Part shown: one piece after another, positions 22,352 through 38,806 of the stretch | How positions within the stretch are numbered: position 1 is the stretch's first letter | Layout: each line of letters opens with the position of its first letter | Translations under genes and position numbers: made by a program | DNA from: Candidatus Saccharicenans subterraneus | Lineage (GTDB): Bacteria; Acidobacteriota; Aminicenantia; Aminicenantales; Saccharicenantaceae | Reading direction: 5' to 3' | NCBI GenBank assembly: GCA_003426165.1 | Contig: QUAH01000001.1 | Span: forward strand, 186,001 to 250,000 | DNA length: 64,000 nucleotides | Notes under the pieces: generated by a model | Seen by the model: only the letters and a program-made list of their open reading frames with translations | Databases searched by the model: none | What the model was told of the DNA's origin: nothing

Positions 22352-22729
22352 ATGCCCGATAAAACCAAGGTCCTGGTGATAGATGATGACCCGGCCATCT
22401 GCGTTTCAGTTAAGGCCATTCTGGAAGCCAGCGGTTACGAAACGGCTACCGCCCTGAGCGGCAAGGAAGGCCTGGAGCTTTTCCGCCGGCTCAATCCCGA
22501 TATCGTCCTGTGCGACATGATGATGGAAGACATAGATGCCGGAGCCAAGGTGGCTAAAGTCATCAAAGAGGAACGTCCCGAGCTGCCCGTGTTTCTGCTC
22601 AGTACCATAGGCGAGGCCACGGCCAGAACCATCGGCCTGGACGAACTGGGCTTTAACGGAGTTTTTCAGAAGCCCGTTAATTTTGACCTTCTGCTCAGCG
22701 TTCTGGAAAAACACAGAAAAAAAGCCTGA
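22352..22729 (+). CDS. Single-domain response regulator
   Basis: VLVIDDDPAICVSVKAILEASGYE; DIVLCDMMMED; K in FQKPVNFD. Confidence 0.93.
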   Translation: MPDKTKVLVIDDDPAICVSVKAILEASGYETATALSGKEGLELFRRLNPDIVLCDMMMEDIDAGAKVAKVIKEERPELPVFLLSTIGEATARTIGLDELGFNGVFQKPVNFDLLLSVLEKHRKKA

Positions 22730-23353: not shown

Positions 23354-25372
23354 GTGTCTTATTACCGAGGTATCTGCAATTTCTGCGGCACCGGTTGCGG
23401 GCACCTGCTCCAGGTGGAGGGAAACCGGGTCCGCGGGGTTTATCCCCTGCCCGGCCATCCCCTGAGTCGCGGCCGGTTGTGTGTCCGCGGCTGGCATATT
23501 CATGAACTGTTGCAGACCGAGGAAAGAATAACCAGCCCGCTGATCAGAGAGGGAAATAGCTTTCGCCCGGTTTCTTTCGATGAGGCGGTAGATTTTACGG
23601 CCAGTCGCCTGAAAACTTTTTCCGGGAGAGAGGTGGCCTTCCTGGGCTCTCCCCGGGCTTCCAACGAGGAAAATTATCTATTTGGAAAGTTTGCCCGGGC
23701 GGTTATGAAAAGCAACAATCTCAGCCTGACCTCGGACGCCGGGCTGGAGGAGAGTTCCCGGGTGCTTCTTGAGGGCTGCGGTTTGCCGGCCATGACCGGC
23801 TCCCTGTCGGCTCTGAGGCAGGCCGATTTTATCCTGGTGGTGGGGGGCGACCTGACCAAGCAGAACCCCATAATCGCCAGCGAAATTCATTTTGCCCGCC
23901 GCTCGGGGACCTTTGTGGCCACAATTTCGCCCAGAAAGACCCAGATGGCCAGGCTCAGTCAGAAGCATCTCAGGCCAAACCCGGGTACCATCTGGCTGTT
24001 GCTCGAGGCCCTGGCCCGCGCCCTGCGAACCGAGGGGCTGGTCCGGGGCGATGATCTCGAAGAACGGGTTGAAAATGCCCGGCAATATCTTGAATACCTG
24101 GATTCCCTGGACCTCAAGCAGGCCTCAGAATCGACCGGGGTCGAGGAGCAGGAAATAATTTCCCTGGCCAGAAAGTTTTATGAATCGGAATCAGCTTTCG
24201 CTTTTTATCCCGTCGGCATCCAGAGCCTGGACCGACGCTCGATGTCAGCCCTCCTTAACCTGTTCCTCCTGGCCGGCAAGCTGGACCGCCCCGCCGGAGG
24301 AATGTGCCCGGTCACCGGCATCAGCAACCTGCTGGGAAGCCTGGACATGGGAGTATCACCGGCTTTTCTGCCCGGCTATTTCCCGGTGGAGGCTGAGGAA
24401 AGCTGGCGGAGGTTTGAAGAACTCTGGCAGGTCGGGCTTAACCGGACACCGGGAAAAAGCGCCGCCGCCTGCCTGCAGGAAGATCGGTCAATCAAGGCCC
24501 TGCTGGTCGTGGACCATGACGAGGAAATCATCCGCCATGTCAACCGGATAAAAGAGCTGGAGTTCGTGGTCTATTTCGGAGCCTACCAGAATGCTTTTGC
24601 CAGCCTGGCCACCGTAATTTTCCCCCGTCTGAATTACGTTGAAGGGGACGGGACATACACCAATTCGGAAAGACGGGTGCAACTCAGCCAGAAAAAAGTG
24701 GAGCCACCGGCTGGAATCAAGCCCATGTGGGAAATACTGAGCCGCCTGGCTTCGGCCCTGGGTCAACCCTGGCCTTATAAATCTGCCGAGGAAATCATGA
24801 CTGAAATAAGCAGGGTAGTGCCTCAGTATTCGGGCCTCAGCCATGAAAAATTGAGGGCCAGTCTTGGCCTCAGGTGGCCGGTAGATGACAGGCACCCGGG
24901 TGGCACAGAATTTCCCCTGGCCGAAGAGACCGGGCGCGGGTTCAAGTTTGTATTCGACGGGGCCGCAGACCGGCGGCAGAGCTTGCGTTCGGGAAAGGAA
25001 GGGGTCTTTCCCTTCAAGCTGGTCGTTGGCCGGAGCAATTATTTCTGGCATCAGAACTCGGTCATGAAAAGGACGTTCATTCCAAGGAGAGAATACAATG
25101 CCCTCCTGCTGCTCTATCCCAATGGCTTTGTAGAAGTCTCGGAAGAAGATGCCCGGGCCCTCGGACTTCGGGAAAAACAGCCGGTGAGGATAGTTTCGGA
25201 AGCCGCTGAAATCAGGCTGGCCACCCGTATTTCGCCCGACATCCTGCCCGGCATGCTCTATATTCCTTATTTTATAGAAGAGATGATTTCCGGGTTCCTG
25301 CACCGCCAGGTGTCCGAACTGGAAAAGAACGAAGAGTTTTTCCTGCCCGTCCGGCTGGAGAAGGTGGAGTAG
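23354..25372 (+). CDS. Molybdopterin oxidoreductase/formate dehydrogenase alpha (NuoG)-like subunit
   Basis: CNFCGTGCGHLLQVEGN...GRLCVRG [4Fe-4S]; NEENYLFGKFARAVMKSNN; molybdopterin dinucleotide-binding C-terminal domain; no Cys/Sec at usual ligand position. Confidence 0.88.
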   Translation: MSYYRGICNFCGTGCGHLLQVEGNRVRGVYPLPGHPLSRGRLCVRGWHIHELLQTEERITSPLIREGNSFRPVSFDEAVDFTASRLKTFSGREVAFLGSPRASNEENYLFGKFARAVMKSNNLSLTSDAGLEESSRVLLEGCGLPAMTGSLSALRQADFILVVGGDLTKQNPIIASEIHFARRSGTFVATISPRKTQMARLSQKHLRPNPGTIWLLLEALARALRTEGLVRGDDLEERVENARQYLEYLDSLDLKQASESTGVEEQEIISLARKFYESESAFAFYPVGIQSLDRRSMSALLNLFLLAGKLDRPAGGMCPVTGISNLLGSLDMGVSPAFLPGYFPVEAEESWRRFEELWQVGLNRTPGKSAAACLQEDRSIKALLVVDHDEEIIRHVNRIKELEFVVYFGAYQNAFASLATVIFPRLNYVEGDGTYTNSERRVQLSQKKVEPPAGIKPMWEILSRLASALGQPWPYKSAEEIMTEISRVVPQYSGLSHEKLRASLGLRWPVDDRHPGGTEFPLAEETGRGFKFVFDGAADRRQSLRSGKEGVFPFKLVVGRSNYFWHQNSVMKRTFIPRREYNALLLLYPNGFVEVSEEDARALGLREKQPVRIVSEAAEIRLATRISPDILPGMLYIPYFIEEMISGFLHRQVSELEKNEEFFLPVRLEKVE

Positions 25373-25375
25373 GTC

Positions 25376-26434
25376 ATGTACTGGTTACCCAGGGATCAGG
25401 TCAGGGCGCTGGTCAACAGGCTGGCCGAAAGTTATGCCGTCTACGGACCGCGCCGGGATGAGGTTTCGGGCGAAGTGGTATTTGACCGGCTGGAAGAGCT
25501 GGAGAGGCTGGACCTGCAGGCAGCCATTCCCTACAATCCGCCCAAGCATGCCCTGTTGCCCCAGTATGAAGAAATCTTGAAGTATCTCTACTCGAAGCAA
25601 TCCCAAAAGGTAACGATAGAAAAAATAAGCAAGGTCGAGCCCAAAGCCCTGGTTGGGTTGAGAGCCTGCGACCTGAACGGCATTCTCTGCCTGGACCGGT
25701 TTTTCCTGGGGCAGGAGTTCGTGGATGAGATTTACCTGGAGCACCGAAAGAAGCTGTTCATCATTTCCAACACCTGCGTCAGGCCCTTTCCCCAGTGCTT
25801 TTGCGTTTGCACCGACAGCGGCCCGGCTGCCGGAGAAGGGTTTGACCTGGACCTGACCTGCGCCGGCCAGGGCTACCTGGTTCTGGTCGGTTCTAAGAAG
25901 GGGCAGAGGCTGGTGGAAGAGCTCGGCCTGCGGGAAGCCGGGAGCGAGGCCCAAAACCTCCGCGAAAAGATCGTGGCCGAGTCGGTATCTTCCTTCGATA
26001 ACTTTGCCCTGGAAAATAAGGCCTGGGTATCCCGGGCCACCAACCGCCTGACCACCGGTTTTATTAAACCGGAGGTCTGGGAATACATAGGCAACCAGTG
26101 CTTTGAGTGCGGGGCCTGTTCTTTTGTCTGTCCCACCTGTTCCTGTTTCAACGTGGAAGATGTCAACCGGGTGGACGGGCCGACCGACCGGGTCCGCACC
26201 TGGGATTCCTGTTCGTTCGAAGGCTATACCAAGATGGCCGGCGACCATAATCCCCGAAAGCCGGTGGAAGACCGGCGCAACAAGAGGTTTTTCTGCAAGC
26301 TGTCATATTCCCAGTCCAAGAAATACCTGCGCCCGGGCTGCGTGGGCTGTGGCCGCTGTGCCCGGGTCTGCCCCGGAGATATCGGTTTACCCAACGTGGT
26401 GACCTATATACGGAGAGAGATAACCGGAGAATGA
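25376..26434 (+). CDS. 4Fe-4S dicluster protein, sulfhydrogenase beta (HydB)/AsrA-like
   Basis: CFECGACSFVCPTCSCF and CVGCGRCARVCPGDIGLP. Confidence 0.85.
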   Translation: MYWLPRDQVRALVNRLAESYAVYGPRRDEVSGEVVFDRLEELERLDLQAAIPYNPPKHALLPQYEEILKYLYSKQSQKVTIEKISKVEPKALVGLRACDLNGILCLDRFFLGQEFVDEIYLEHRKKLFIISNTCVRPFPQCFCVCTDSGPAAGEGFDLDLTCAGQGYLVLVGSKKGQRLVEELGLREAGSEAQNLREKIVAESVSSFDNFALENKAWVSRATNRLTTGFIKPEVWEYIGNQCFECGACSFVCPTCSCFNVEDVNRVDGPTDRVRTWDSCSFEGYTKMAGDHNPRKPVEDRRNKRFFCKLSYSQSKKYLRPGCVGCGRCARVCPGDIGLPNVVTYIRREITGE

Positions 26435-27279
26435 GGACCATGGACAACCAGCTGGTGCCGATCGTAACCGTGCCGGAAGTGGCCACCGTGGTGGACATCC
26501 GCGAGGAAATTGCTGACGTCCGGACCTTTTATTTCACCTTTGACCGGCCGGAGATTGAACGGGCCTTCCGGATCCGGTCCGGCCAGTTCATCATGTGCAC
26601 CGTCTTCGGGGCCGGGGAGTTTGCCGTTTCTCTGCCGTTCAGCCCGGAGAACGACCGGAAGCATATCTCGGTCAGGAAGGTGGGCAAGGTGACCGCGGCC
26701 CTGCATGAGCTTCAACCCGGGGATAAAATCGGCATCCGGGGCCCGTTCGGCAACGGCTTTCCTTTTGAAGAAATAAAAGGAAAGAATGTCATTTACGTGG
26801 CCGGCGGGATCGGCTTGATTCCGCTCCGGTCCTCCATTGTCCATGTTCTTCAGCATCGGCCTGATTTTGGCCGGATGATCCTGGTCTACGGGGCCAGGAG
26901 CTCCAGGGACCTGATGTACAAGGATTCCATCAGGGAGTGGCAGGCCACCCGGGATTTTGAAACCCACTTCACCATCGACCGGCCGGAACCCGGCTGGACC
27001 GGCCAGGTTGGTTTTGTCAACCAGCTGGTGGCCGGGCTCAACCTGCCGGCCGAGAACACCGTGGCCTTTGTCTGCGGCCCGCCGGTAATGTTCAACGCCG
27101 TTATCAAGGAACTGAAGCTAAAGGGAATAAAGGAGCAGGACATTTATTCCACGCTGGAAAGGCACATGAAGTGCGGCATCGGGAAATGCCAGCACTGCGC
27201 CATCGGGCGAACCCTGGTCTGCGTCGACGGCCCGGTCTATACCTACAGGCAGATCAAGACCCTGGGAGAACAGATCTAA
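26431..27279 (+). CDS. FAD/NAD(P)-binding oxidoreductase, sulfhydrogenase gamma (HydG)/AsrB-like
   Basis: GDKIGIRGPFGNGFP; YVAGGIGLIPLRS; CGIGKCQHCAIGRTLVCVDGPVY. Confidence 0.88.
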   Translation: MRTMDNQLVPIVTVPEVATVVDIREEIADVRTFYFTFDRPEIERAFRIRSGQFIMCTVFGAGEFAVSLPFSPENDRKHISVRKVGKVTAALHELQPGDKIGIRGPFGNGFPFEEIKGKNVIYVAGGIGLIPLRSSIVHVLQHRPDFGRMILVYGARSSRDLMYKDSIREWQATRDFETHFTIDRPEPGWTGQVGFVNQLVAGLNLPAENTVAFVCGPPVMFNAVIKELKLKGIKEQDIYSTLERHMKCGIGKCQHCAIGRTLVCVDGPVYTYRQIKTLGEQI

Positions 27280-27280
27280 G

Positions 27281-27826
27281 ATGGAATCGCTGGAGCTGCT
27301 GCGGGAAGTCCTGACCGGGAAGACCTGCCTGGTCGGCATCGGCAATAGCCTGCGCGGTGACGACGGCTTCGGTCCTTACTTCATAGAGAAACTCAGGGAG
27401 AAGGCCCTCCTCCCGGAGGCCAACCTGATGACGGTTGAGGATGTGCCGGAAAACTATGCCTTCCCCATCTCCAGGATGGAGGTGACCACGGTGGTCTTTG
27501 TGGATGCCGTGATTCTCGAAGCTCCGCCGGGCACGGTCGTTTTAGGGCCACTGGAAGAGCTGGAGGAAATCGGCCAGATAGCTTCCACCCACAAGCTGGC
27601 CTTGCGGCTGACGGCCAGGGTTATCGAGGAGACCGGAAAAAAGGTCTACCTGCTGGGGGTGGTCCCGGAGTCCACCGAGTTCGGCCGGGAGCTGTCGCCG
27701 GCGGTCAGGCAGGCGGCGGTTGAACTGGTTTCTCTGGCAGAAAAACTTATCCGGGAAAATGAGGACGGGCTAACGGAATCAGAAAAAAAGAAGAAAACAG
27801 GGAGAAAAGCTAATGACCGGAACTGA
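27281..27826 (+). CDS. Hydrogenase maturation protease (HycI-type)
   Basis: CLVGIGNSLRGDDGFGPYFIEKL; VFVDAVI; STHKLALRL. Confidence 0.92.
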   Translation: MESLELLREVLTGKTCLVGIGNSLRGDDGFGPYFIEKLREKALLPEANLMTVEDVPENYAFPISRMEVTTVVFVDAVILEAPPGTVVLGPLEELEEIGQIASTHKLALRLTARVIEETGKKVYLLGVVPESTEFGRELSPAVRQAAVELVSLAEKLIRENEDGLTESEKKKKTGRKANDRN

Positions 27827-29696
27827 GGCTCTCTGGCTCAGTCTCGCCAGCCTGCTGCTGTCTTTTCTGGCGGCCTTTTTACTTGGCAAAAAGGTTCGTC
27901 TTGTCCGCCTGACCGGAACCATCCTGATCTCCCTGGCCTGCTTTTTCCTGGCCTGGCAGGGAGTGATGATTCTGGGCGCGGGGCAGCCGGTCGAACTGGA
28001 GTTAAAGCTGGCCGGGATTCATATTCCGGTCTTGATTGACGGCCTTTCGGCCCTGTTTCTGCTGCTTCTTTCCGTCCTGGCCCTTGGCTCCACCCTTTTT
28101 GCTTACGGTTATTATGAAACTACCGAAACGAAAATAGTTCAGAAAGTTTACCTGGCCCTGCCCGTTTTCATTGCCGGCCTGGTTGGTCTTCTGACTGTTG
28201 ACGACCTCGGTCCCGGTTTTACCCTGGCCTGGCAGTTGATGGCCATTTCCTCATACCTTCTAATCAGGTGGGGCAGGCCGCTGAAGCTTTCAGGCAGGCC
28301 GGCCCTGGTCTACCTGGTTTTCATGGAAATGGCCTGGGTGCTGATAACCGGCTCCGCTTTCCTGGCTAAAGGTTATCATTTCGGGGATTCACTCGCGGCC
28401 GTCGGGCAAAAATTGTCCGGCTCGGGGCCGGTGGCCACCGCCATTTTCCTGGTCATGCTTCTTTTAGGCTTCGGTCTCAAGACCGGGATTTTCCCGCTCG
28501 GACAGCTCTGGATACCCGGGGCTTACTCGACCGCCTCCCCACCGGTTTCAGCCCTGCTGGCCGGCATCCTGGAAAAAACCGGGGTATTCGGGCTGATCAG
28601 AATCTTCTTCTTCGTGGCCCGTGGAGCCGGGGCCGGCTTTAATCCGGACCTGTGGGGACAGGTACTGGTGGTGGTCGGGACCCTGACTCTCTTCGTCGGG
28701 ACGGTCCAGGCCATCAAGCAGAGCGATTATCTCAGGCTCCTGGCTTATAGCTCCATCGGCCAGGTGGGCTACATCGTCCTGGCCCTGGGCAGCAGCCTGC
28801 TCGCCTGGCATTCTGGTTCGCCCCTGGCCGGGATTATCTTTGCCGGGGCTGTTTACCACAGCCTTAACCACGGAATCTTCAAGAGCCTTCTCTTCCTGAC
28901 CGGCGGCAGCCTGCTCTATGCCACGGGGACCCGGGACCTGAACCGCCTGGGCGGGCTCCTGGCCGTTATGCCAGTAACCGGCCTTCTGGCCGCCCTGGCG
29001 TCCTATTCCATCTCCGGCATGCCGGCCTCCAGTGGGTTTGTCAGCAAGTGGTTGATGATTGCCGGGAATTTCCTGGCCGGAAAAGATAGCCTGCTTTTAA
29101 CCATGGCCGGGATAGTGGCCCTGTTCACGGCGGCCTTTACCCTGGCCTGCTACGTGAAGTTTTTCGGGCTGGCTTTCACCTCGGCCGGGGCCGGCTGGAA
29201 ATTGAAGAGGGAAATCAGGGAAGTGCCGGGCTCCCTGCTGGTGCCAAAAATTTTCCTGGCCGCGATCTGCCTGAGCCAGGCTTTCCTGCCGGCGGTTTAT
29301 GTCCGGCTCATCGGCCGCAGCCTGGCCACAACCGAGGGGTTTCTTCTGACCGGAGTGGGGGCCGAGGGTCTTAAGACAAACCCAATCGGCCTTCAGATTT
29401 TTGAGGGGCCGGCCTTGCTGGCCGCAGTTGCCCCGCTGGCCATGCTGGCTCTGCTCCTGGTTCTGGCTTTCCTGGCCCGCTGGTTAAGGCAGTCGGCCGG
29501 AGCTCAGGAAGCCAGGGTCCCGGCCTGGCTGTGCGGTTACCAGGACCTTAATAAGAATAATGTCTATGCCGACCGCAACATGTTTTCCGACCTGAAGAAA
29601 TTTTTCCGGTGGACGGGGGCCAATAAAAATGTGGTGATTGATGATGATGAGTTGTCTGAATCTGTGGGCCGGGAAGAAAAAGGGGTAATTTCATGA
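27813..29696 (+). CDS. Proton-conducting antiporter-like subunit (HyfB/NuoL-like)
   Basis: Polytopic; FAYGYYETTETK, LLAYSSIGQVGYIVLALG, HSLNHGIFKSLLFLTGGSLLYATGTRDLNRLGGL. Confidence 0.9.
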   Translation: MTGTEALWLSLASLLLSFLAAFLLGKKVRLVRLTGTILISLACFFLAWQGVMILGAGQPVELELKLAGIHIPVLIDGLSALFLLLLSVLALGSTLFAYGYYETTETKIVQKVYLALPVFIAGLVGLLTVDDLGPGFTLAWQLMAISSYLLIRWGRPLKLSGRPALVYLVFMEMAWVLITGSAFLAKGYHFGDSLAAVGQKLSGSGPVATAIFLVMLLLGFGLKTGIFPLGQLWIPGAYSTASPPVSALLAGILEKTGVFGLIRIFFFVARGAGAGFNPDLWGQVLVVVGTLTLFVGTVQAIKQSDYLRLLAYSSIGQVGYIVLALGSSLLAWHSGSPLAGIIFAGAVYHSLNHGIFKSLLFLTGGSLLYATGTRDLNRLGGLLAVMPVTGLLAALASYSISGMPASSGFVSKWLMIAGNFLAGKDSLLLTMAGIVALFTAAFTLACYVKFFGLAFTSAGAGWKLKREIREVPGSLLVPKIFLAAICLSQAFLPAVYVRLIGRSLATTEGFLLTGVGAEGLKTNPIGLQIFEGPALLAAVAPLAMLALLLVLAFLARWLRQSAGAQEARVPAWLCGYQDLNKNNVYADRNMFSDLKKFFRWTGANKNVVIDDDELSESVGREEKGVIS

Positions 29697-31384
29697 GCCG
29701 GAAAGAAGAACTCGTTCGCTGGCTGGAAAAAGAACTGGACGGTAATTTTATTTCTGCGGAAGCGACTATCCCGGGCCGTCTCTTCATCGACCTGAAAAGG
29801 GAGGCGCTGTCCGCGGCCGCAACTGGCCTGATGAACCGCGGTGCCCGTTACCAGGTGGGTGTTGGCTATGACGCCAGAAAGAGCGGCCAGGGATTTGGCC
29901 TGGTACACACCTTTGCCTTTGATAAAGATTCCTTGCTGGTGGCCCTGAGAACCTTTGCTCCCGAGGATGACCCGGAATTCGATTCGTTAACCCCGCTGAT
30001 TCCCGGCGCCGGCTGGTCGGAGAGGGAATACCAGGACCTGCTGGGCCTGAGATTCAGGAACCATCCGAACCCCAGGCGCCTGGTGCTGTCCGACGACTGG
30101 CCCGAGGGTATATATCCGCTGCGCCGTGAAGTTCCCCACGACCTGATGCCACCGGCGGCAGAGGAAGTGGCTTTTCGGCTGGAGGAAGCCCCGCCGGGCA
30201 CTTCCATAGTCCCCCTTGGTCCCTTCCACGCCAGCCTGCATGAACCGGCCCATTTTTCGGTTTACGTGGACGGTGAGGACATAAAAGGTTGCGAATACCG
30301 AGGCTTTATGACCCACCGGGGAATAGAGAAGCTGGCCCAGACCGAGCTGACCTATAACGACGTGCCCTTCGTGGCCGAAAGAATCTGCGGCATCTGCGGT
30401 TCTGTTCATTCGGTCAACTATGCCCAGGCGGTGGAGGCGGCGGCCGGGTTGAGGATTCCCAGGCGGGCCGAGTTCATCCGGATGGTGGCCCTGGAGCTGG
30501 AAAGGCTTCATTCTCACCTGCTGTGGCTGGGGGTGGCCGGGCATTTGATTGGCTTCGACACGGTCTTCATGCAGGCCTGGAGAATCAGGGAAAAAATAAT
30601 GTGGCTGGCGGAAAGGCTGACCGGGAACCGCAAGACCTACGGAATGGTGATAATCGGCGGGGTCCGCCGTGATATCAACCAGGACAGGTCGGAGGACATC
30701 AGGGCCGTTCTGAAGGAAGTTGAAAGAGAAATGCTGGCCCTGGAAAAAGCCATCCTCAAGGACCGGACCATTCATAAAAGAACCAGGGGAGTTGGCTATC
30801 TCTCCCGGGAAGAAGCTGTGAAGTGGAACCTGATAGGACCGGTGGCCCGGGCCCGGGGAGTGGATATGGATGCCCGCCGGGACCATCCCTACGCGGCCTA
30901 CGATGAAGTACAGTTTGAAGTTCCGCTGGCCGACTCCGGCGATGTCTGGGGAACCCTGGTGGTCAGGGTGAAAGAAGTCTACGAGGCCATAAAAATTATC
31001 AACCAGTGCCTGGATAAGCTGGAAAAACTTCCGAAAAACGAACCGCTGTCGGTTGACCTGGAAGGGCCGATTCCGGCCGGCCGGCAGGGGCTGTCGCTGG
31101 TCGAAGCCCCGCGGGGCGAGGCCGTGCATTACGTTCTCACCGGCGAGGAGAACCGGCCGGAACGCTGGCGGGTCAGGGCCCCAACTTATCCCAACCTGCA
31201 GGCGGTTCCCTCCATGCTTTTGAACAACAAGCTGGCCGATTTTCCGATTATCGTCGGCTCCATTGACCCCTGCATTTCCTGCACCGATCGGGTGCTGGTG
31301 GTGGAAAGAAGGTCGGGGAAGGCCAGACTGCTGTCCGGGCAGGAACTGGAAAACCTTTCCCGGGGGAAGAGGTCTAAGAAATGA
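29693..31384 (+). CDS. Group 4-type [NiFe] hydrogenase large subunit, NuoC-NuoD fusion (HycE-like)
   Basis: N-terminal NuoC-like domain; Ni ligands ERICGICGSVHSVNY and DPCISCTDR; processable C-terminal tail. Confidence 0.93.
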   Translation: MSRKEELVRWLEKELDGNFISAEATIPGRLFIDLKREALSAAATGLMNRGARYQVGVGYDARKSGQGFGLVHTFAFDKDSLLVALRTFAPEDDPEFDSLTPLIPGAGWSEREYQDLLGLRFRNHPNPRRLVLSDDWPEGIYPLRREVPHDLMPPAAEEVAFRLEEAPPGTSIVPLGPFHASLHEPAHFSVYVDGEDIKGCEYRGFMTHRGIEKLAQTELTYNDVPFVAERICGICGSVHSVNYAQAVEAAAGLRIPRRAEFIRMVALELERLHSHLLWLGVAGHLIGFDTVFMQAWRIREKIMWLAERLTGNRKTYGMVIIGGVRRDINQDRSEDIRAVLKEVEREMLALEKAILKDRTIHKRTRGVGYLSREEAVKWNLIGPVARARGVDMDARRDHPYAAYDEVQFEVPLADSGDVWGTLVVRVKEVYEAIKIINQCLDKLEKLPKNEPLSVDLEGPIPAGRQGLSLVEAPRGEAVHYVLTGEENRPERWRVRAPTYPNLQAVPSMLLNNKLADFPIIVGSIDPCISCTDRVLVVERRSGKARLLSGQELENLSRGKRSKK

Positions 31385-32280
31385 AAGTGACGGCTGTAAT
31401 TATCAACCTGCTTTACTTCCTGGCCCTGGCTCCCTTTCTGGAAGGGGTGATGAGAAAGGTGACGGCCAGAATTCAATCGAGGCAGGGGCCACCGCTCTAC
31501 CAGCCCTACCTTGACCTCTTAAAGCTCCTGGGAAAAGAGAACCTGAACGCGGCCGGGCACCCGGTTTTCCGGCTGGCCCCGCTGCTGGCCTTTGCTTCCG
31601 TTCTGTCGGCCGTGGCCCTGCTGCCCCTGGCCGGACAGAGCAGTTTCCTGGCCCATTCCTCGGACCTGATGACCCTGATTTATTTCCTCACCCTGAGCGG
31701 TTTTTTCATTCTGATTGGAGCCCTGGCCAGCGGCAATCCTTTTGCCGGGGTCGGCGCCAGCCGCGAAATGATGACTATCATCATGCTGGAACCGGTGCTG
31801 GCCATGACCCTGATCCTGGGCGTTGTCCGGGCGGGAAGCCTGAATCTGTTGGCAGCAACGGGTGGGGTCTCCTCGGCCAGGGGACTTTCTTATTTCCTGA
31901 TGATGGCGGTTTACCTGGTGGCCCTGCAGGCTTTTGTTTCCAGGCAGCCCTTTGATATACCGGAAGCCGAGGTGGAAATTCTGGAAGGGCCCTACATTGA
32001 ATACAGCGGGCCGAATTATGCCCTTTTCCGGTATACCCTTAACCTGAAGCGGATGTTTTACAGCTGGCTGTTCGTGGCCGGCTTCCTTGGCTTCTGGCTG
32101 CCGGGAAGCCCGGTCCTGAACCTGGCCATCCAGACCGTTCTAATCCTGGTTTTATTCGTGTTGATTTCGGTGGTCGGGGCCACCCATCCCCGCTTCCGCA
32201 TGGACCAGGCCCTTAAATTTTATGCGGTGCTGGTGTTGCTGTCGCTGGTGGCCGTTGGCCTGGGGGTCCGAGGATGGTAG
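31381..32280 (+). CDS. NuoH/HycD-like membrane subunit
   Basis: ARIQSRQGPPLYQPYLDLLKLLGKE; QPFDIPEAEVEILEGPYIEYSGPNYALFRY. Confidence 0.92.
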   Translation: MKVTAVIINLLYFLALAPFLEGVMRKVTARIQSRQGPPLYQPYLDLLKLLGKENLNAAGHPVFRLAPLLAFASVLSAVALLPLAGQSSFLAHSSDLMTLIYFLTLSGFFILIGALASGNPFAGVGASREMMTIIMLEPVLAMTLILGVVRAGSLNLLAATGGVSSARGLSYFLMMAVYLVALQAFVSRQPFDIPEAEVEILEGPYIEYSGPNYALFRYTLNLKRMFYSWLFVAGFLGFWLPGSPVLNLAIQTVLILVLFVLISVVGATHPRFRMDQALKFYAVLVLLSLVAVGLGVRGW

Positions 32281-32301
32281 GTACAGGAAAACAAATGAAA
32301 G

Positions 32302-32859
32302 GTGAAGCCTGAGATGTGGCTGTGGAATAAAATCAAGCAACTGGCGATTTCCTTCAGGGCCGGGATGGTTACCCTGCATTATCCATTTGAGCCGCGGCCC
32401 GCACCCGAGGGCTTCCGGGGTCAGCCGGTCTGGGACCACACCAAGTGCATAGGCTGTGCCGGCTGCGCCAGCCACTGCCCGGCCCGGACCATCTTTCTGC
32501 GGGATATCTGCCAGGAGCTGCGGATCCTGCTTTACGATTCTTCCCGCTGCACCTACTGCGGGCGCTGTGCCGACCTCTGCCCGGAAAAGGCCATCACCAT
32601 GAGTGACAAATTTGAACTGGCCACCGATAACCGCCAGGACATCACCCAGAGCCTGGAGCTGTTCATGATGACCTGCCAGCGCTGCGGCCGCTGCTATGAC
32701 CTGGAGATAAAGAATTACATAGACCGGCTGAGTTCTCTCGGTTACCGTTATGACTCCCTGGAAGCCCGCAAGGTAATCCGCCGGAGCACGGCCGATTTCT
32801 CTCCGGAAGAACTGGAAAAGACCGTTACCTACGAAAGGCCCGGGAGGTTGGAGAAATGA
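32302..32859 (+). CDS. 2x[4Fe-4S] ferredoxin-like subunit (NuoI/HycF-like)
   Basis: CIGCAGCASHCPA and CTYCGRCADLCPEKAI; extra CQRCGRC. GTG 32302 or ATG 32314 start. Confidence 0.9.
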   Translation: MKPEMWLWNKIKQLAISFRAGMVTLHYPFEPRPAPEGFRGQPVWDHTKCIGCAGCASHCPARTIFLRDICQELRILLYDSSRCTYCGRCADLCPEKAITMSDKFELATDNRQDITQSLELFMMTCQRCGRCYDLEIKNYIDRLSSLGYRYDSLEARKVIRRSTADFSPEELEKTVTYERPGRLEK

Positions 32860-33422
32860 CCATATTTAAGAAGCTGGCCGGCAGAGCCTTCCGCCGCTCG
32901 GTCTGGGTCTATCACTGCAACAGCGGAGCCTGCAACGGCTGCGACATTGAAATTCTCAACATCCTCACCCCTTACTACGACGTGGAGCGGTTCGGAATAA
33001 GACTGGTGGGCTCACCCCGCCAGGCCGACGCCATCCTGCTGTCGGGAGCGGTGACCCGTCCCACCCTGCCCCTGGTTAAAAAGGCCTACCAGGCGGTGCC
33101 GGCTCCCAAGCTGGTTTTTGCCGTAGGGTCCTGTGCCATCGGTGGCGGCTGCTGGTATGATACTTATAATGTGACCGGCGGCGGGGAGAAAGCCATTCCG
33201 GTTCATTATTTCATACCGGGCTGCCCGCCCCGGCCGGAGGCCATCATCTACGGGGTAGCCCTGGCCCTGGGTCTGGTTGATAAGAAGGTGGCCCCGGTGG
33301 AGCTCAAGCAGATGGAATTCCCGGTGGACATGTACCGTCGGGCCAGGCTTTTTGAAGTCAATAATGTCATCTATAAGTTATTGGGCGAAGAGGATGACCG
33401 CCTGGAATTCGGGAGGAAATGA
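32856..33422 (+). CDS. Hydrogenase small subunit (NuoB/HycG-like)
   Basis: CNSGACNGCDIEIL; VFAVGSCAIGGG; IPGCPPRPEAI. Confidence 0.94.
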   Translation: MTIFKKLAGRAFRRSVWVYHCNSGACNGCDIEILNILTPYYDVERFGIRLVGSPRQADAILLSGAVTRPTLPLVKKAYQAVPAPKLVFAVGSCAIGGGCWYDTYNVTGGGEKAIPVHYFIPGCPPRPEAIIYGVALALGLVDKKVAPVELKQMEFPVDMYRRARLFEVNNVIYKLLGEEDDRLEFGRK

Positions 33423-33423
33423 C

Positions 33424-33834
33424 ATGGCCAGGATTCTTCTGGTGGACGACGACCGCGACCTGACCGACAGCCTGGGCCAGGTCCTTCGTTTCAAGGGTTA
33501 TGAAGTGGAAGTGGCCCACAGCGGCCATGAAGGCTTGAAGAAGATGCTGGAATTCAAGCCCGACCTGGTCATCCTGGATGTCATGATGGAAACCGATACC
33601 GCCGGTTTCGAAGCCGTCTATAAGATCAGGAGCGACCGGCCGGATTCAAAGTACCGGGATTTCAGGGATGTCCCCATCATCATCCTGACCGCCATCAACC
33701 AGGTCACCAACTCCCGGTTTTCTCTCGACCAGGAAGAGAGCTTCCTGCCCGGTCGCAATGAATTCTTGACCAAGCCGGTGGAAGTGGAAGAGCTCCTGGA
33801 AAAAATCTCCAGGAACCTGGAAGGGCAAAAATGA
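33424..33834 (+). CDS. Response regulator receiver protein
   Basis: MARILLVDDDRDLTDSLG; DLVILDVMME; LTKPVEVEEL; true ATG at 33424. Confidence 0.92.
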   Translation: MARILLVDDDRDLTDSLGQVLRFKGYEVEVAHSGHEGLKKMLEFKPDLVILDVMMETDTAGFEAVYKIRSDRPDSKYRDFRDVPIIILTAINQVTNSRFSLDQEESFLPGRNEFLTKPVEVEELLEKISRNLEGQK

Positions 33835-35774
33835 AACTGGAGGATCTGGCCCGGAAGCTTGATGTGTTGAGGTCCAGCCTCCGCTTCAAGCTGATTTTCG
33901 GCCTGCTGACCATCGTCTTCCTGATGGGCGCGCTGTCCATTTATCTTGGCGTTAATTCCATCAACCGCAACGTTATCAGGGAAGCCTACGACAACGTCAG
34001 AAACAGCCTGAAGGCTATCAGCGACCTCTACCAGGAAGAAATCCGGAACCGGGCCGGAATAGTTGAGTACCTGGCCCGGACCTCGGAGATCGTCAGTGCC
34101 ACGGCCTCGGGAAACAGGGAGTACCTGTTTGACAAGCTGGTCCAGATCAAGCAGGAGTTTGGCTTTGATATCGTCAACGTGGTCCGGCCGGACGGGACCA
34201 TCCTGGTCAGGGCCAATAACTTTGAAGCCTACGGCGACAGCGTAAGCCATTACAAGTACATTCACTGGGTCCTGACCAACAGGAAACCGGCGGCCGGAAC
34301 CGGCATCCTCGGTTACGAAAATATCAAGAATGAAGGCCCGGACCTGGCGGCCAGAACCCTGATCAGTGTTGTTCCCACGCCCAGGGCCAGGGCCCAGAAA
34401 CGGGAGATGGAAGAAAGGGCCCTGGTGCTGAAAACAGTTTCGCCCATATTTCAGGGTTCCCGCCTGGTGGGGGTGCTCTATGCGGCCGTCCTGCTCAATA
34501 ACAACGACCGCTTTGTTGACCGGTTTAAGAACCTGATTTTCAAGGAAGAAAAAATAAAGGGCAAGGACGTCGGCACCATCACCATCTTTGTCGACGACGT
34601 CCGGGTGGCCACCAATGTCGTTGACCGCAACGGCCGGCGGGCGGTGGGCACCCTGGTCTCGGAAGAAGTCTTCCGCCAGGTGTACGAACAGGGCCGGGAC
34701 TGGCTGGGCCGGGCTTTCGTGGTTAACGATTATTATCTTTCCGGCTATACCCGGCTGACCGATATCGAAAACAAGCCGGTGGGCATGCTCTACGTGGGTA
34801 TCCTGGAGGGCAAGTTTTCCGGCATCCTGCGGCGGACGACCATCCTTTATTTCCTTCTTATCTTCCTGATGACCGGGATTGCCATCTACATGTCGACCTA
34901 CCTGGTCAACCTTTATACCCGGCCCATCAACCGGATGATCGAGGCCACGGCCGAGATCGCCCGCGGGAATTATCATCTGCTGGAGATCCCTCCAGACGAG
35001 AGTGCCGAAATCCGGGAAGTTGAAGAACATTTCAATGAAATGGTCCGGGCCATCGAGGACCGTGACCGCCGGTTGAAGGAGCTGGCCGAAAAGACCATTC
35101 TGCGCTCGGAAAAGCTGGCCTCGGTCGGTCGCCTGGCCTCGGGCATTGCCCATGAGATTAACAACCCGCTGACCGGCATCCTGACCTACAGCAGCCTGCT
35201 GCTGGAAGAGCTGAAAGGTACTCCTTACGAAGAAGATTTAAGGACCATCAAGGAAGAGACCCTGCGCTGCCGCAAGATTGTCCGCGGCCTGCTGGATTTT
35301 GCCCGGGACTACAAGCCCGAAAGAATGGAGGCCGACCTGAATGACCTGATCGGTGAAGTCCTGGGCCTGCTGGAAAAACATGTCAACTTTCAGAATGTGA
35401 AAATAATAAAGAACCTGGACCCGAACCTACCGGCGGTCAAAGTGGATGCCGACGAATTCCGCTCGGTGATCAACAACCTGGCGGTTAACGCCGCCGACGC
35501 CATGCCCGAGGGCGGGCAGCTGACCATATCGACCTCTTATGACCGGGAAAACAACCTGGTGATAGTCCGGGTGGCCGATACCGGAGTTGGCATAAGCGAG
35601 GAAAACCTGAAGAGAATTTTTGAACCCTTCTTCACCACCAAGGAAAAGGGCAAGGGAACCGGCCTGGGACTGGCCATGGCCTACGGGGTGATTAAAAGGC
35701 ACAATGGAACTATCGAGGTCAGCAGCCGGGTGGGCGAGGGGACAGAATTCACCATAAAGCTGCCGGTGGAATGA
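33831..35774 (+). CDS. Sensor histidine kinase with extracytoplasmic Cache-like domain and HAMP
   Basis: Two TM segments flanking sensory region; H-box [19 protein letters not shown] boxes; [18 protein letters not shown]. Confidence 0.93.
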
Positions 35775-35796: not shown

Positions 35797-36861
35797 ATGA
35801 GCCAACCGCGAATCCTGTTCATCGACGACGAAGAAATCGTCCTGAGAAGCTGCCGCCGGATCTTTGCCGGCTCCGGATACGAAATAGAAACCGCCCTGTC
35901 CGGGGAAGAGGGGCTCAGCAAGGCTCTCAACCAGGATTTTGACCTGGTGGTCACCGACCTCAAGATGCCCGGCATCGGGGGTATGGAGGTCCTGACCCGG
36001 CTGAGGAAATCCAGGCCCGACACCACGGTAATTATCTTTACCGGTTATGCCAGCGTGGATACGGCCAGGGAAGCCCTAAAAAACGGAGCCTTTGATTATA
36101 TCCCCAAGCCCTTCACCCCCGAAGAAATCAGGGAAGTCATTAAGAATGCCCTGGAAGCCAGGGCCGGTAAACAGAGAACCATGCTGGACCTGATGGCCAT
36201 AGTTTCCCACGAGCTCAAGAGCCCGGTCTCGGCCTTGCACACCACGGCTTCCACCCTCTACAAGGGGTACTTCGGGCAGCTCTCACCCGAGCAGATGAAA
36301 ATTCTGGAGACCATCATCCGCAACTGCGAATATCTGGAAGACATCATCCGCAGCTACCTGGACCTGTCGAAGATGGAACTCGACCAGCTGGATTCGTTCA
36401 AGGAACAAATTTATTTTGCCAAGGATGTGGTGGAGGAGGTCCTGACCCTGCCCGAAATCCAGGACAACACCAAGAAGATGACGGTCAGCAAGAATTTTCC
36501 CCAGGACGTAAAGATAAACGGCGACCCGCGGTTGCTAAGAATCCTGGTGCGAAACCTGGTCAGCAACGCCATTAAGTACGGGACCGAAGGTACCGAGGTA
36601 AAGCTGGGTCTGGAAACCAAAGACGGCCAGATGGTTTTTTCTGTCCACAACCTGGGAGTGGGCATCAGGCCGGAAGACGGCCCGCGGCTCTTCCGCAAGT
36701 TTGAAAGGCTCAAGCAGCAGGGGACAGAAGGCGTCAAGGGTTCCGGCCTCGGGCTCTACATCTGCAAGAAAATTGTGGACAGCCACGGGGGCAAAATCTG
36801 GTTTGAATCGGAGCCCGGCCGCTGGGTAACTTTTTATGTCAGCCTGCCCCTGGCTTCCTGA
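35797..36861 (+). CDS. Receiver-histidine kinase hybrid
   Basis: ILFIDDEEIVLRSC, DLVVTDLKMPG; H-box IVSHELKSPVSAL; GSGLGLYICKKIVDSHGG. Confidence 0.93.
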   Translation: MSQPRILFIDDEEIVLRSCRRIFAGSGYEIETALSGEEGLSKALNQDFDLVVTDLKMPGIGGMEVLTRLRKSRPDTTVIIFTGYASVDTAREALKNGAFDYIPKPFTPEEIREVIKNALEARAGKQRTMLDLMAIVSHELKSPVSALHTTASTLYKGYFGQLSPEQMKILETIIRNCEYLEDIIRSYLDLSKMELDQLDSFKEQIYFAKDVVEEVLTLPEIQDNTKKMTVSKNFPQDVKINGDPRLLRILVRNLVSNAIKYGTEGTEVKLGLETKDGQMVFSVHNLGVGIRPEDGPRLFRKFERLKQQGTEGVKGSGLGLYICKKIVDSHGGKIWFESEPGRWVTFYVSLPLAS

Positions 36862-37166: not shown

Positions 37167-37196
37167 TTGACATTCCGCCCTTATCTTCCCTATAAT
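37167..37196 (+). promoter_or_regulatory. Sigma70 promoter of tmRNA
   Basis: TTGACA-18 bp-TATAAT, -10 ends 9 bp before the mature 5' end. Confidence 0.85.
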
Positions 37197-37588: not shown

Positions 37589-38806
37589 ATGCCCAGAACA
37601 GCCAGAGTCATACTAGTCCTGTCGTTGTTATTTGTGGCTTTTTCCAGCCTGGTTTTTTCCCCCGTCCTGGCCCAGAAGAAAAGCCAGCCCGTCCCGGTCA
37701 TCAAAGTCGAGGTGGTTGACTTTACCGGTGGTGCCCGGCTGAAGATCACCGCCGGCTCAAACCTGAATTACAGCCTGAGAAAATCCGGGAATGTGCTGAC
37801 CGTTTCCTTCAGGTCGCTGAGCGGACTGCGCTATGACCGGACGCCCTTTTCCAGCCGCCTGGTCCAGTCCATCGACCTGGCCAAATCGCCCGAGGCTTTC
37901 CTGTTGCTGATCAAGACCTCAACTGCTGATTTTTCCTATACCCAGTCGGCCCGCTGGAATCCCTTCGAGCTGACGATTGAACTAAGAACCGGGGAGGAGA
38001 AGAAAGCCCCGGCCGAGCCCAGGCCGACGGCTCCGGAAAAGCCGGTCACGACCCAGGTTCAGGCTCAACCCACCGCTGCTGCCGAACAGGCCGGGCCCCC
38101 AACCTCCGGCGGCAAGAAGCAGGTTAAAACCATCGTCATCGACCCGGGACATGGCGGCAACGAGACCGGGGCCAAGGGAACATACGGAACCCTGGAAAAG
38201 GATGTAACGCTGGCGGTTTCCAGGAAGCTCAAGGAAGCCATAGAGCGCGGGCTGAAATACCGCGTGGTCATGACCAGGGAGGCCGACCTCTCGGTTCCCC
38301 TGGAGAGGCGGGCGGCCATTGCCAATAACAACAAGGCCGATTTGTTCATCAGCATTCATGTCAACGGTTCCCGGAGGGTGAAGGCCAACGGCTCGGAAAC
38401 ATTTTTCCTCAGCCTGAATGCCACGGACGAAGAATCGCGCCGCCTGGCCTACTTTGAGAACAACTCGGAGGAGCTGGAAAACCGGGTCCCGGAAAAGGAC
38501 TTCGATGACCTGAAGCTCATCCTGTGGGACATGGCCCAGTCGGCCTACCTCAAGCAGAGCAGCCAGCTGGCCGAGTTCGTCCAGCAGGAGCTCAACGAGC
38601 TGCTGAATACCAGGAACCGCGGGGTCAAGCAGGCTCCCTTCAAGGTCCTGACCGGCGCGGCCTGCCCGGCCATACTGGTGGAAGTGGCCTTTATCACCAA
38701 CCCGGAAGAGGAAAAGCAGCTGCAGTCGGAAGATTTCCAGGCCAGGGTGGCCGAGGCCATCTACCGCGGCCTTAACCGGTTCCTGCAGCTTTATGAAAAA
38801 CCATGA
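37589..38806 (+). CDS. N-acetylmuramoyl-L-alanine amidase with AMIN-like N-terminal domain
   Basis: IVIDPGHGGNETGAKGTYGTLEKDV; VMTREAD; FISIHVNGS; VEVAFITNPEEE. Confidence 0.95.
   Translation: MPRTARVILVLSLLFVAFSSLVFSPVLAQKKSQPVPVIKVEVVDFTGGARLKITAGSNLNYSLRKSGNVLTVSFRSLSGLRYDRTPFSSRLVQSIDLAKSPEAFLLLIKTSTADFSYTQSARWNPFELTIELRTGEEKKAPAEPRPTAPEKPVTTQVQAQPTAAAEQAGPPTSGGKKQVKTIVIDPGHGGNETGAKGTYGTLEKDVTLAVSRKLKEAIERGLKYRVVMTREADLSVPLERRAAIANNNKADLFISIHVNGSRRVKANGSETFFLSLNATDEESRRLAYFENNSEELENRVPEKDFDDLKLILWDMAQSAYLKQSSQLAEFVQQELNELLNTRNRGVKQAPFKVLTGAACPAILVEVAFITNPEEEKQLQSEDFQARVAEAIYRGLNRFLQLYEKP

Follow-up and report, generated by a model that had tools for sequence, protein, structure and literature searches.

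The anaerobic systems that combine an NAD(P)H-oxidizing module with another redox enzyme include the Pyrococcus sulfhydrogenase (HydBG/ShyBC) and the anaerobic sulfite reductase AsrAB, in which HydB together with HydG/AsrB acts as an NAD(P)H diaphorase module. Known formate dehydrogenases (FDHs) require a Cys or selenocysteine (Sec) followed by a His, plus an Arg in a PLRGQNN loop; in E. coli FdhH, these residues are Sec140, His141 and Arg333. In respiratory complex I, a glutamate in the fifth transmembrane helix (TM5) of antiporter-like subunits is important for activity. Here we describe a nine-gene operon at positions 23354 to 33422 of a 64,000-nucleotide stretch of DNA, referred to as the window, from Candidatus Saccharicenans subterraneus, whose genome is a 2.9-Mb metagenome-assembled genome (MAG) that is 93% complete. 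We consider it rather likely that its product is a complex-I-like NAD(P)H:H+ oxidoreductase anchored in the membrane, in which a HydBG module would serve as the electron gate and an inactive FDH-like subunit as a NuoG-like bridge.

As originally predicted, nine open reading frames (ORFs) lie on one strand, and the assignments proposed for all nine were matched by Pfam and NCBIfam:

23354..25372, + strand, FdhA-like molybdopterin oxidoreductase-fold subunit, predicted to be inactive (Pfam PF04879/PF00384/PF01568; FDH fold)
25376..26434, + strand, HydB/AsrA-like subunit with two 4Fe-4S clusters (PF17179; NF040833/NF040829/TIGR02910 below cut-offs; cysteines conserved)
26431..27279, + strand, HydG/AsrB-like FAD/NAD(P)-binding [2Fe-2S] subunit (PF00970, PF00175, PF10418; FAD, NAD(P) and 2Fe-2S motifs aligned)
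27281..27826, + strand, HycI-type hydrogenase maturation protease (PF01750; TIGR00072, 108 bits over a cut-off of 47)
27813..29696, + strand, HyfB/HycC-like antiporter-like membrane subunit with a TM5 Glu to Gln change (PF00361, Proton_antipo_M; NuoL/NuoM/HycC/HyfB alignment)
29693..31384, + strand, HycE-like [NiFe] large subunit, a NuoC-NuoD fusion (PF00329, PF00346, PF00374, NiFeSe_Hases)
31381..32280, + strand, HycD/NuoH-like membrane subunit (PF00146; EAE...EG...EYSG region conserved in the HycD/NuoH alignment)
32302..32859, + strand, HycF/NuoI-like subunit with two 4Fe-4S clusters (PF00037/PF12838; NF009053)
32856..33422, + strand, HycG/NuoB-like small subunit (PF01058; NF005012 over cut-off)

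The intergenic spacings are, in order, 3, -4, 1, -14, -4, -4, 21 and -4 bases. The HydB-like and HydG-like proteins are encoded together and, as they score under the curated equivalog cut-offs, they constitute a homologous module rather than the named enzymes.

The catalytic Cys/Sec-His pair and the Arg are missing from all 45 hydrogenase-linked Fdh-like copies, comprising 22 in a first set and 23 further ones (16 from Spirochaetota, two deltaproteobacterial copies of the nine-gene type and five from a related deltaproteobacterial clade). Among 72 comparison FDHs, the Cys/Sec and Arg positions are kept at at least 95%, and the His is kept too in the printed alignment; E. coli FdhF and three FdhF proteins of formate hydrogenlyases (FHLs) retain all three. 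No conserved replacement is present at the Cys position of the linked copies, where Gly, Tyr, Trp and other residues occur. At 31 positions, the linked set has lost residues that hardly vary among FDHs, and the four [4Fe-4S] cysteines are retained (C8, C11, C15 and C43 in the window protein). Replacement of Lys44 (FdhH numbering) by Arg was also considered as part of the active-site loss but was dropped, as several real FDHs have Arg there as well. Against TIGR01591, the window protein scores 390 bits, under the cut-off of 666. Its closest solved relatives are FDHs, and its AlphaFold model (15 sequences) has an FDH fold with a mean predicted local distance difference test score of 78; the score is below 50 in the Fe-S region, where the model is too poor for an assessment of the active site. 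Among the FDHs, the linked copies group in one clade (17 rows, support 100/99), apart from the FdhF proteins of FHLs, with uncertain placement inside the clade because some rows have long branches. In the Spirochaetota operons, the FdhA-like subunit is 40-49% identical to that of the window, as against 65-76% for HydG and 59-64% for HycE; it diverges faster than its operon partners. Judged from its sequence, the Fdh-like subunit is not a formate dehydrogenase and is predicted to be catalytically inactive.

A different possibility is that the Fdh-like subunit is a working Mo/W enzyme acting on another substrate and feeding electrons to both NAD(P) and H2. In its favor, the subunit retains the general molybdopterin fold and a number of residues shared across the family, and the wider superfamily includes members that function with no protein ligand to the metal. 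However, the rapid divergence of this subunit relative to its partners, the variation of the active-site columns among members (they are not fixed to a new residue set) and the loss of many more near-invariant FDH positions make such an enzyme unlikely.

The hydrogenase core has the features of a group 4 [NiFe] hydrogenase, with homologs of NuoB, NuoI, NuoC and NuoH and an antiporter-like subunit. Both nickel CxxC motifs claimed for the large subunit, ERICGICG (C232, C235) and DPCISC (C527, C530), are intact and are also present in orthologs. HycI carries out the proteolytic maturation of hydrogenase large subunits, and the C-terminal extension after DPCISCTDR fits such processing. The best solved-structure match of the large subunit is HycE of the E. 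coli FHL (7z0s, 417 bits; archaeal Mbh, 263 bits). A tree built from 57 large subunits places the window protein in a clade of 27 rows (100/100) nested within a group of 39 rows (94/88). The sister of this 39-row group is the FHL group (100/100), with HycE, HyfG and Bacillota enzymes, and the node uniting both has support of 100/99. In this tree, the protein falls beside HycE/HyfG and not among them; it may or may not belong to group 4a (FHL-type). An identity with HydDB group 4f was rejected, as the described Desulfitobacterium 4f complex is of the Ech type, unlike the nine-gene complex.

This sister position, together with the FDH fold and the FDH structures nearest to the Fdh-like subunit, speaks for an FHL, in which the Fdh-like protein would oxidize formate, the hydrogenase would make H2 and HydBG would form a side branch to NAD(P). 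A peatland acidobacterial MAG also carries an fdhF plus hyf operon annotated as an FHL (PMC6018796), although this may be a different operon. However, the Cys/Sec, His and Arg are gone from every linked copy, with no conserved substitute at the Cys position, and a profile search of the own genome found no FDH above the curated cut-off. The active site of pyruvate formate-lyase is an adjacent Cys pair; this pair was not found in the sole PF02901 protein of the genome, which reads SSGCVE at the active site. An FHL is therefore very unlikely, and the formate-related part of the original prediction is not supported, as the linked copies lack the catalytic residues and the genome shows no formate pathway.

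HydB-HydG homologs also follow FdhA in operons without a hydrogenase, in which FdhA is intact (L081, L084, L088, L094 and L096). Their occurrence beside an intact FdhA suggests the source of the module. A FdhA-HydB-HydG operon is also present in a Methanothrix sp. MAG (L073), where FdhA keeps the Cys-His and the Arg and has the loop PLREHQN instead of PLRGQNN. The existence of such three-gene sets on their own, with an active FDH, could mean that two enzymes are encoded in one operon, one a soluble electron-transfer protein made up of the FdhA-like, HydB and HydG subunits, the other a membrane hydrogenase independent of it. We regard this as highly improbable, since loss of the FDH site coincides exactly with hydrogenase linkage, and the linked FdhA proteins form a single clade (100/99), the linked HydG proteins one group (85/86) and the hydrogenases a single group.

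In the Spirochaetota and Verrucomicrobia samples, three loci (L281, L278 and L283) link HydB-HydG to a group 4 hydrogenase without any Fdh-like subunit. The L281 operon has a HycB-like protein instead of the Fdh-like one and lacks an antiporter-like gene. The HydG proteins of the Fdh-less Spirochaetota operons form a separate branch. Because an operon without the Fdh-like gene joins HydB-HydG to a group 4 hydrogenase, HydBG appears to be the shared electron gate, and the Fdh-like protein would be one way to bridge it to the hydrogenase.

The nine-gene order was searched for synteny and recurs across several bacterial phyla. As it is conserved in many genomes, the run is not accidental. The same order is found throughout the genus, family and order of Candidatus Saccharicenans, with the HycI protease gene not found in some sister operons (e.g., L041 and L043-L045). 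Among named genomes, the closest match is to Candidatus Saccharicenans sp. SKW99 (L064), which NCBI places in the phylum Candidatus Aminicenantota and which has the whole operon and a Fdh-like protein of 83% identity; L064 and L037 are probably one genome and thus not independent. The order is also present in a Spirochaetia MAG (L066), two Verrucomicrobia MAGs (L067 and L069) and a Terriglobia MAG (L068). Among 247 genomes sampled from the phylum of the Spirochaetia MAG, 32 have a large subunit of this type (E value 5e-286 or better), and the genes detected in Spirochaetota stand in the same order at all 20 loci inspected, as far as the contig reaches. Two genomes of the deltaproteobacterial sample (L264 and L271) have the operon with hycD shifted to the front. 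The sampled phylum relatives of a Moorellales MAG carry FHL-type operons instead, with an active FdhF and/or HycB and extra antiporter subunits.

At the position of NuoL/NuoM Glu144 in TM5, the antiporter-like subunit has Gln in all 40 clade members with data, while the Glu is kept in all 17 relatives that fall outside it, among them E. coli HycC and HyfB. The lysines of TM7, TM8 and TM12 are present; of the residues that mark a proton-pumping NuoL/M- or HycC-type subunit (TM5 Glu, TM7 Lys, TM8 Lys and TM12 Lys/Glu), the TM5 Glu is missing. With this change fixed, proton pumping is doubtful, and whether the complex translocates protons is uncertain despite its NuoH-like and antiporter-like subunits. 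The single antiporter-like subunit of the original prediction stands; the terms “respiratory” and “pump-like” are weakened by the conserved TM5 change.

The retained membrane subunits, with these three lysines and the NuoH acidic loop, could also fit an energy-converting hydrogenase linked to ferredoxin or to several donors, in which HydBG would mediate exchange among ferredoxin, NAD(P)H and H2, possibly with energy coupling via the membrane subunits. Many group 4 hydrogenases use ferredoxin, and HydB-type subunits bear ferredoxin-like clusters. However, the FAD- and NAD-binding domains are strongly conserved, pointing to NAD(P); the operon encodes no second flavin subunit of the bifurcating type; and another group 4 hydrogenase, one that has several antiporter-like subunits, is already encoded in the genome. 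We give this possibility roughly one chance in nine, that is, we think it improbable.

The composite character of the complex is supported, with an NAD(P)H-type input module joined to a group 4 [NiFe] hydrogenase that has one antiporter-like subunit. In the NAD(P)H:H+ oxidoreductase that we favor, electrons would enter from NAD(P)H at the FAD and [2Fe-2S] cluster of the HydG-like subunit, reach the single [4Fe-4S] cluster in the FdhA-like subunit by way of the two [4Fe-4S] clusters in the HydB-like one, and then move via HycF and HycG to the Ni-Fe site of the HycE-like subunit, where H2 would be made or consumed. We infer the cofactor occupancy, the subunit contacts, the electron donor and the reaction direction. 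The ancestor of the FdhA-like subunit was probably a real formate dehydrogenase paired with HydB-HydG, its formate site having been lost once, before the family spread, to leave a NuoG-like structural electron bridge. Weakly coupled or uncoupled, the complex might act as a redox valve through which NAD(P)H is disposed of as H2 when the H2 pressure is low, or is recovered from H2.

Several points weigh against this scheme. NAD(P)H is the presumed donor by family, it may be NADH or NADPH, and ferredoxin is also possible. The Fdh-like subunit may still bind bis-MGD. Electron transfer from NAD(P)H to H2 is uphill at standard potentials, and the direction would therefore depend on H2 pressure. As the MAG is about 93% complete, the absence of FDH and pyruvate formate-lyase is not proof. 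Lastly, an FDH above cut-off is present in 10 of the 30 operon-bearing genomes (nine of them from the Spirochaetia phylum sample) and absent from the other 20; with true FDHs in these 10 hosts, the operon is not tied to formate-free genomes.

More tentatively, and at somewhat less than even odds, the operon may represent a widespread class of complex-I-like, NAD(P)H-linked hydrogenases in which a formate dehydrogenase became a non-catalytic bridge, the TM5 Glu was lost and the enzyme operates as a weakly coupled or uncoupled valve. The change from FDH to bridge would run parallel to that in complex I. If true, this would be a second case in which an active molybdo-enzyme has turned into a structural path for electrons within a complex-I-like assembly, and it would offer a natural test of the need for the TM5 glutamate in coupling. 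In environmental genomes, such operons are easily misread as formate hydrogenlyases; models of Aminicenantota, Spirochaetota and other fermenters would then include formate that may not be there. No open-access description of such a complex was found in a limited search, with subscription journals outside its scope, nor was any open paper found on Saccharicenans and hydrogenase.

In six operons of a related deltaproteobacterial clade (L265-L270; genomes G1425, G1252, G1292, G1403, G1328 and G1254), the HycE-like gene contains in-frame TGA. This codon stands at the first N-terminal nickel-ligand Cys (window position 232) in all six and also at the second (235) in five, which read RIUGIUG; L266 has TGA at one position only. 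As TGA also ends neighboring genes in the loci checked, this is not a plain code change. An identical hairpin, CACAGTACGTGTTACTGTG, starts 9 bases past the second codon in all six. Of the six genomes, four have a selB match above cut-off and one has a partial match; the selB loci yielded no tRNA-Sec, which says little because they are short. Probably, these codons specify selenocysteine, which would give a double-Sec hydrogenase in five of the six. The [NiFeSe] enzymes known so far carry a single Sec, located in the C-terminal motif. Selenium [NiFe] large subunits that have one Sec, as UxxC, are listed in a 2026 review (PMC13188914).

The co-oriented run extends past 33422 by three more two-component genes, to 36861 (12 genes), and a further receiver gene lies upstream:

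33424..33834, + strand, receiver-domain response regulator, 1 bp past the small-subunit gene (PF00072)
33831..35774, + strand, Cache/HAMP sensor histidine kinase (PF17202, PF00672, PF00512, PF02518; orthologs)
35797..36861, + strand, receiver plus histidine-kinase hybrid protein (PF00072, PF00512, PF02518; orthologs)
22352..22729, + strand, upstream response-regulator receiver protein (PF00072), placed with the operon by position only

The Cache/HAMP kinase gene also adjoins the operon in other genera and in many Spirochaetota, the hybrid gene is kept downstream of it in the family and order, and a receiver gene like the upstream one sits about 0.6-1 kb upstream of the operon in relatives. A promoter scan gave only a weak match, close to the operon start. 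A perfect sigma-70 consensus (TTGACA-18-TATAAT) is located just 3' of the operon, at window positions 37167-37196, ahead of the gene at 37589. The window holds no hyp genes, as had been noted, but this absence concerns location only, as hypD lies on a different contig of this genome. The contig that holds the window also has, upstream of it, a second cluster for a group 4 hydrogenase (G000:C9:51000-69000, L056), which encodes several antiporter-like subunits, NuoC and NuoD as separate proteins, and a HycI-like protease of its own; further [NiFe] large-subunit matches occur on contigs C12 and C9.

Compared with E. coli formate hydrogenlyase-1 (Hyd-3, HycBCDEFG plus FdhF), the operon has equivalents of HycE, HycD, HycC/HyfB, HycF and HycG, a fused NuoC-NuoD large subunit, one antiporter-like subunit and the HycI protease. 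However, it has HydB and HydG and no HycB-like ORF, the active FdhF is replaced by a predicted inactive Fdh-like protein of another FDH lineage, and the antiporter-like subunit shows Glu to Gln in TM5 and Glu to Lys in TM12. The FdhA-HydB-HydG operons without hydrogenase (L081, L084, L088 and L096) share the three-gene order and homologous subunits, but their FdhA keeps the Cys/Sec, His and Arg, and no such hydrogenase genes follow. HydBG/ShyBC and AsrAB have homologs of HydB and HydG/AsrB, but in those systems the electrons from the module go to a soluble group 3 hydrogenase or to a sulfite reductase, and the nine-gene proteins score below the corresponding curated cut-offs. Respiratory complex I (Nuo) likewise has an NAD(P)H module, a non-catalytic molybdopterin-fold subunit (NuoG), NuoI, NuoB, NuoCD, NuoH and an antiporter-like subunit. 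In the nine-gene complex, a Ni-Fe site would take the place of the quinone site, HydBG that of NuoEF, with one antiporter-like subunit, and the predicted inactive molybdo-subunit is closest to FDHs rather than to NuoG.

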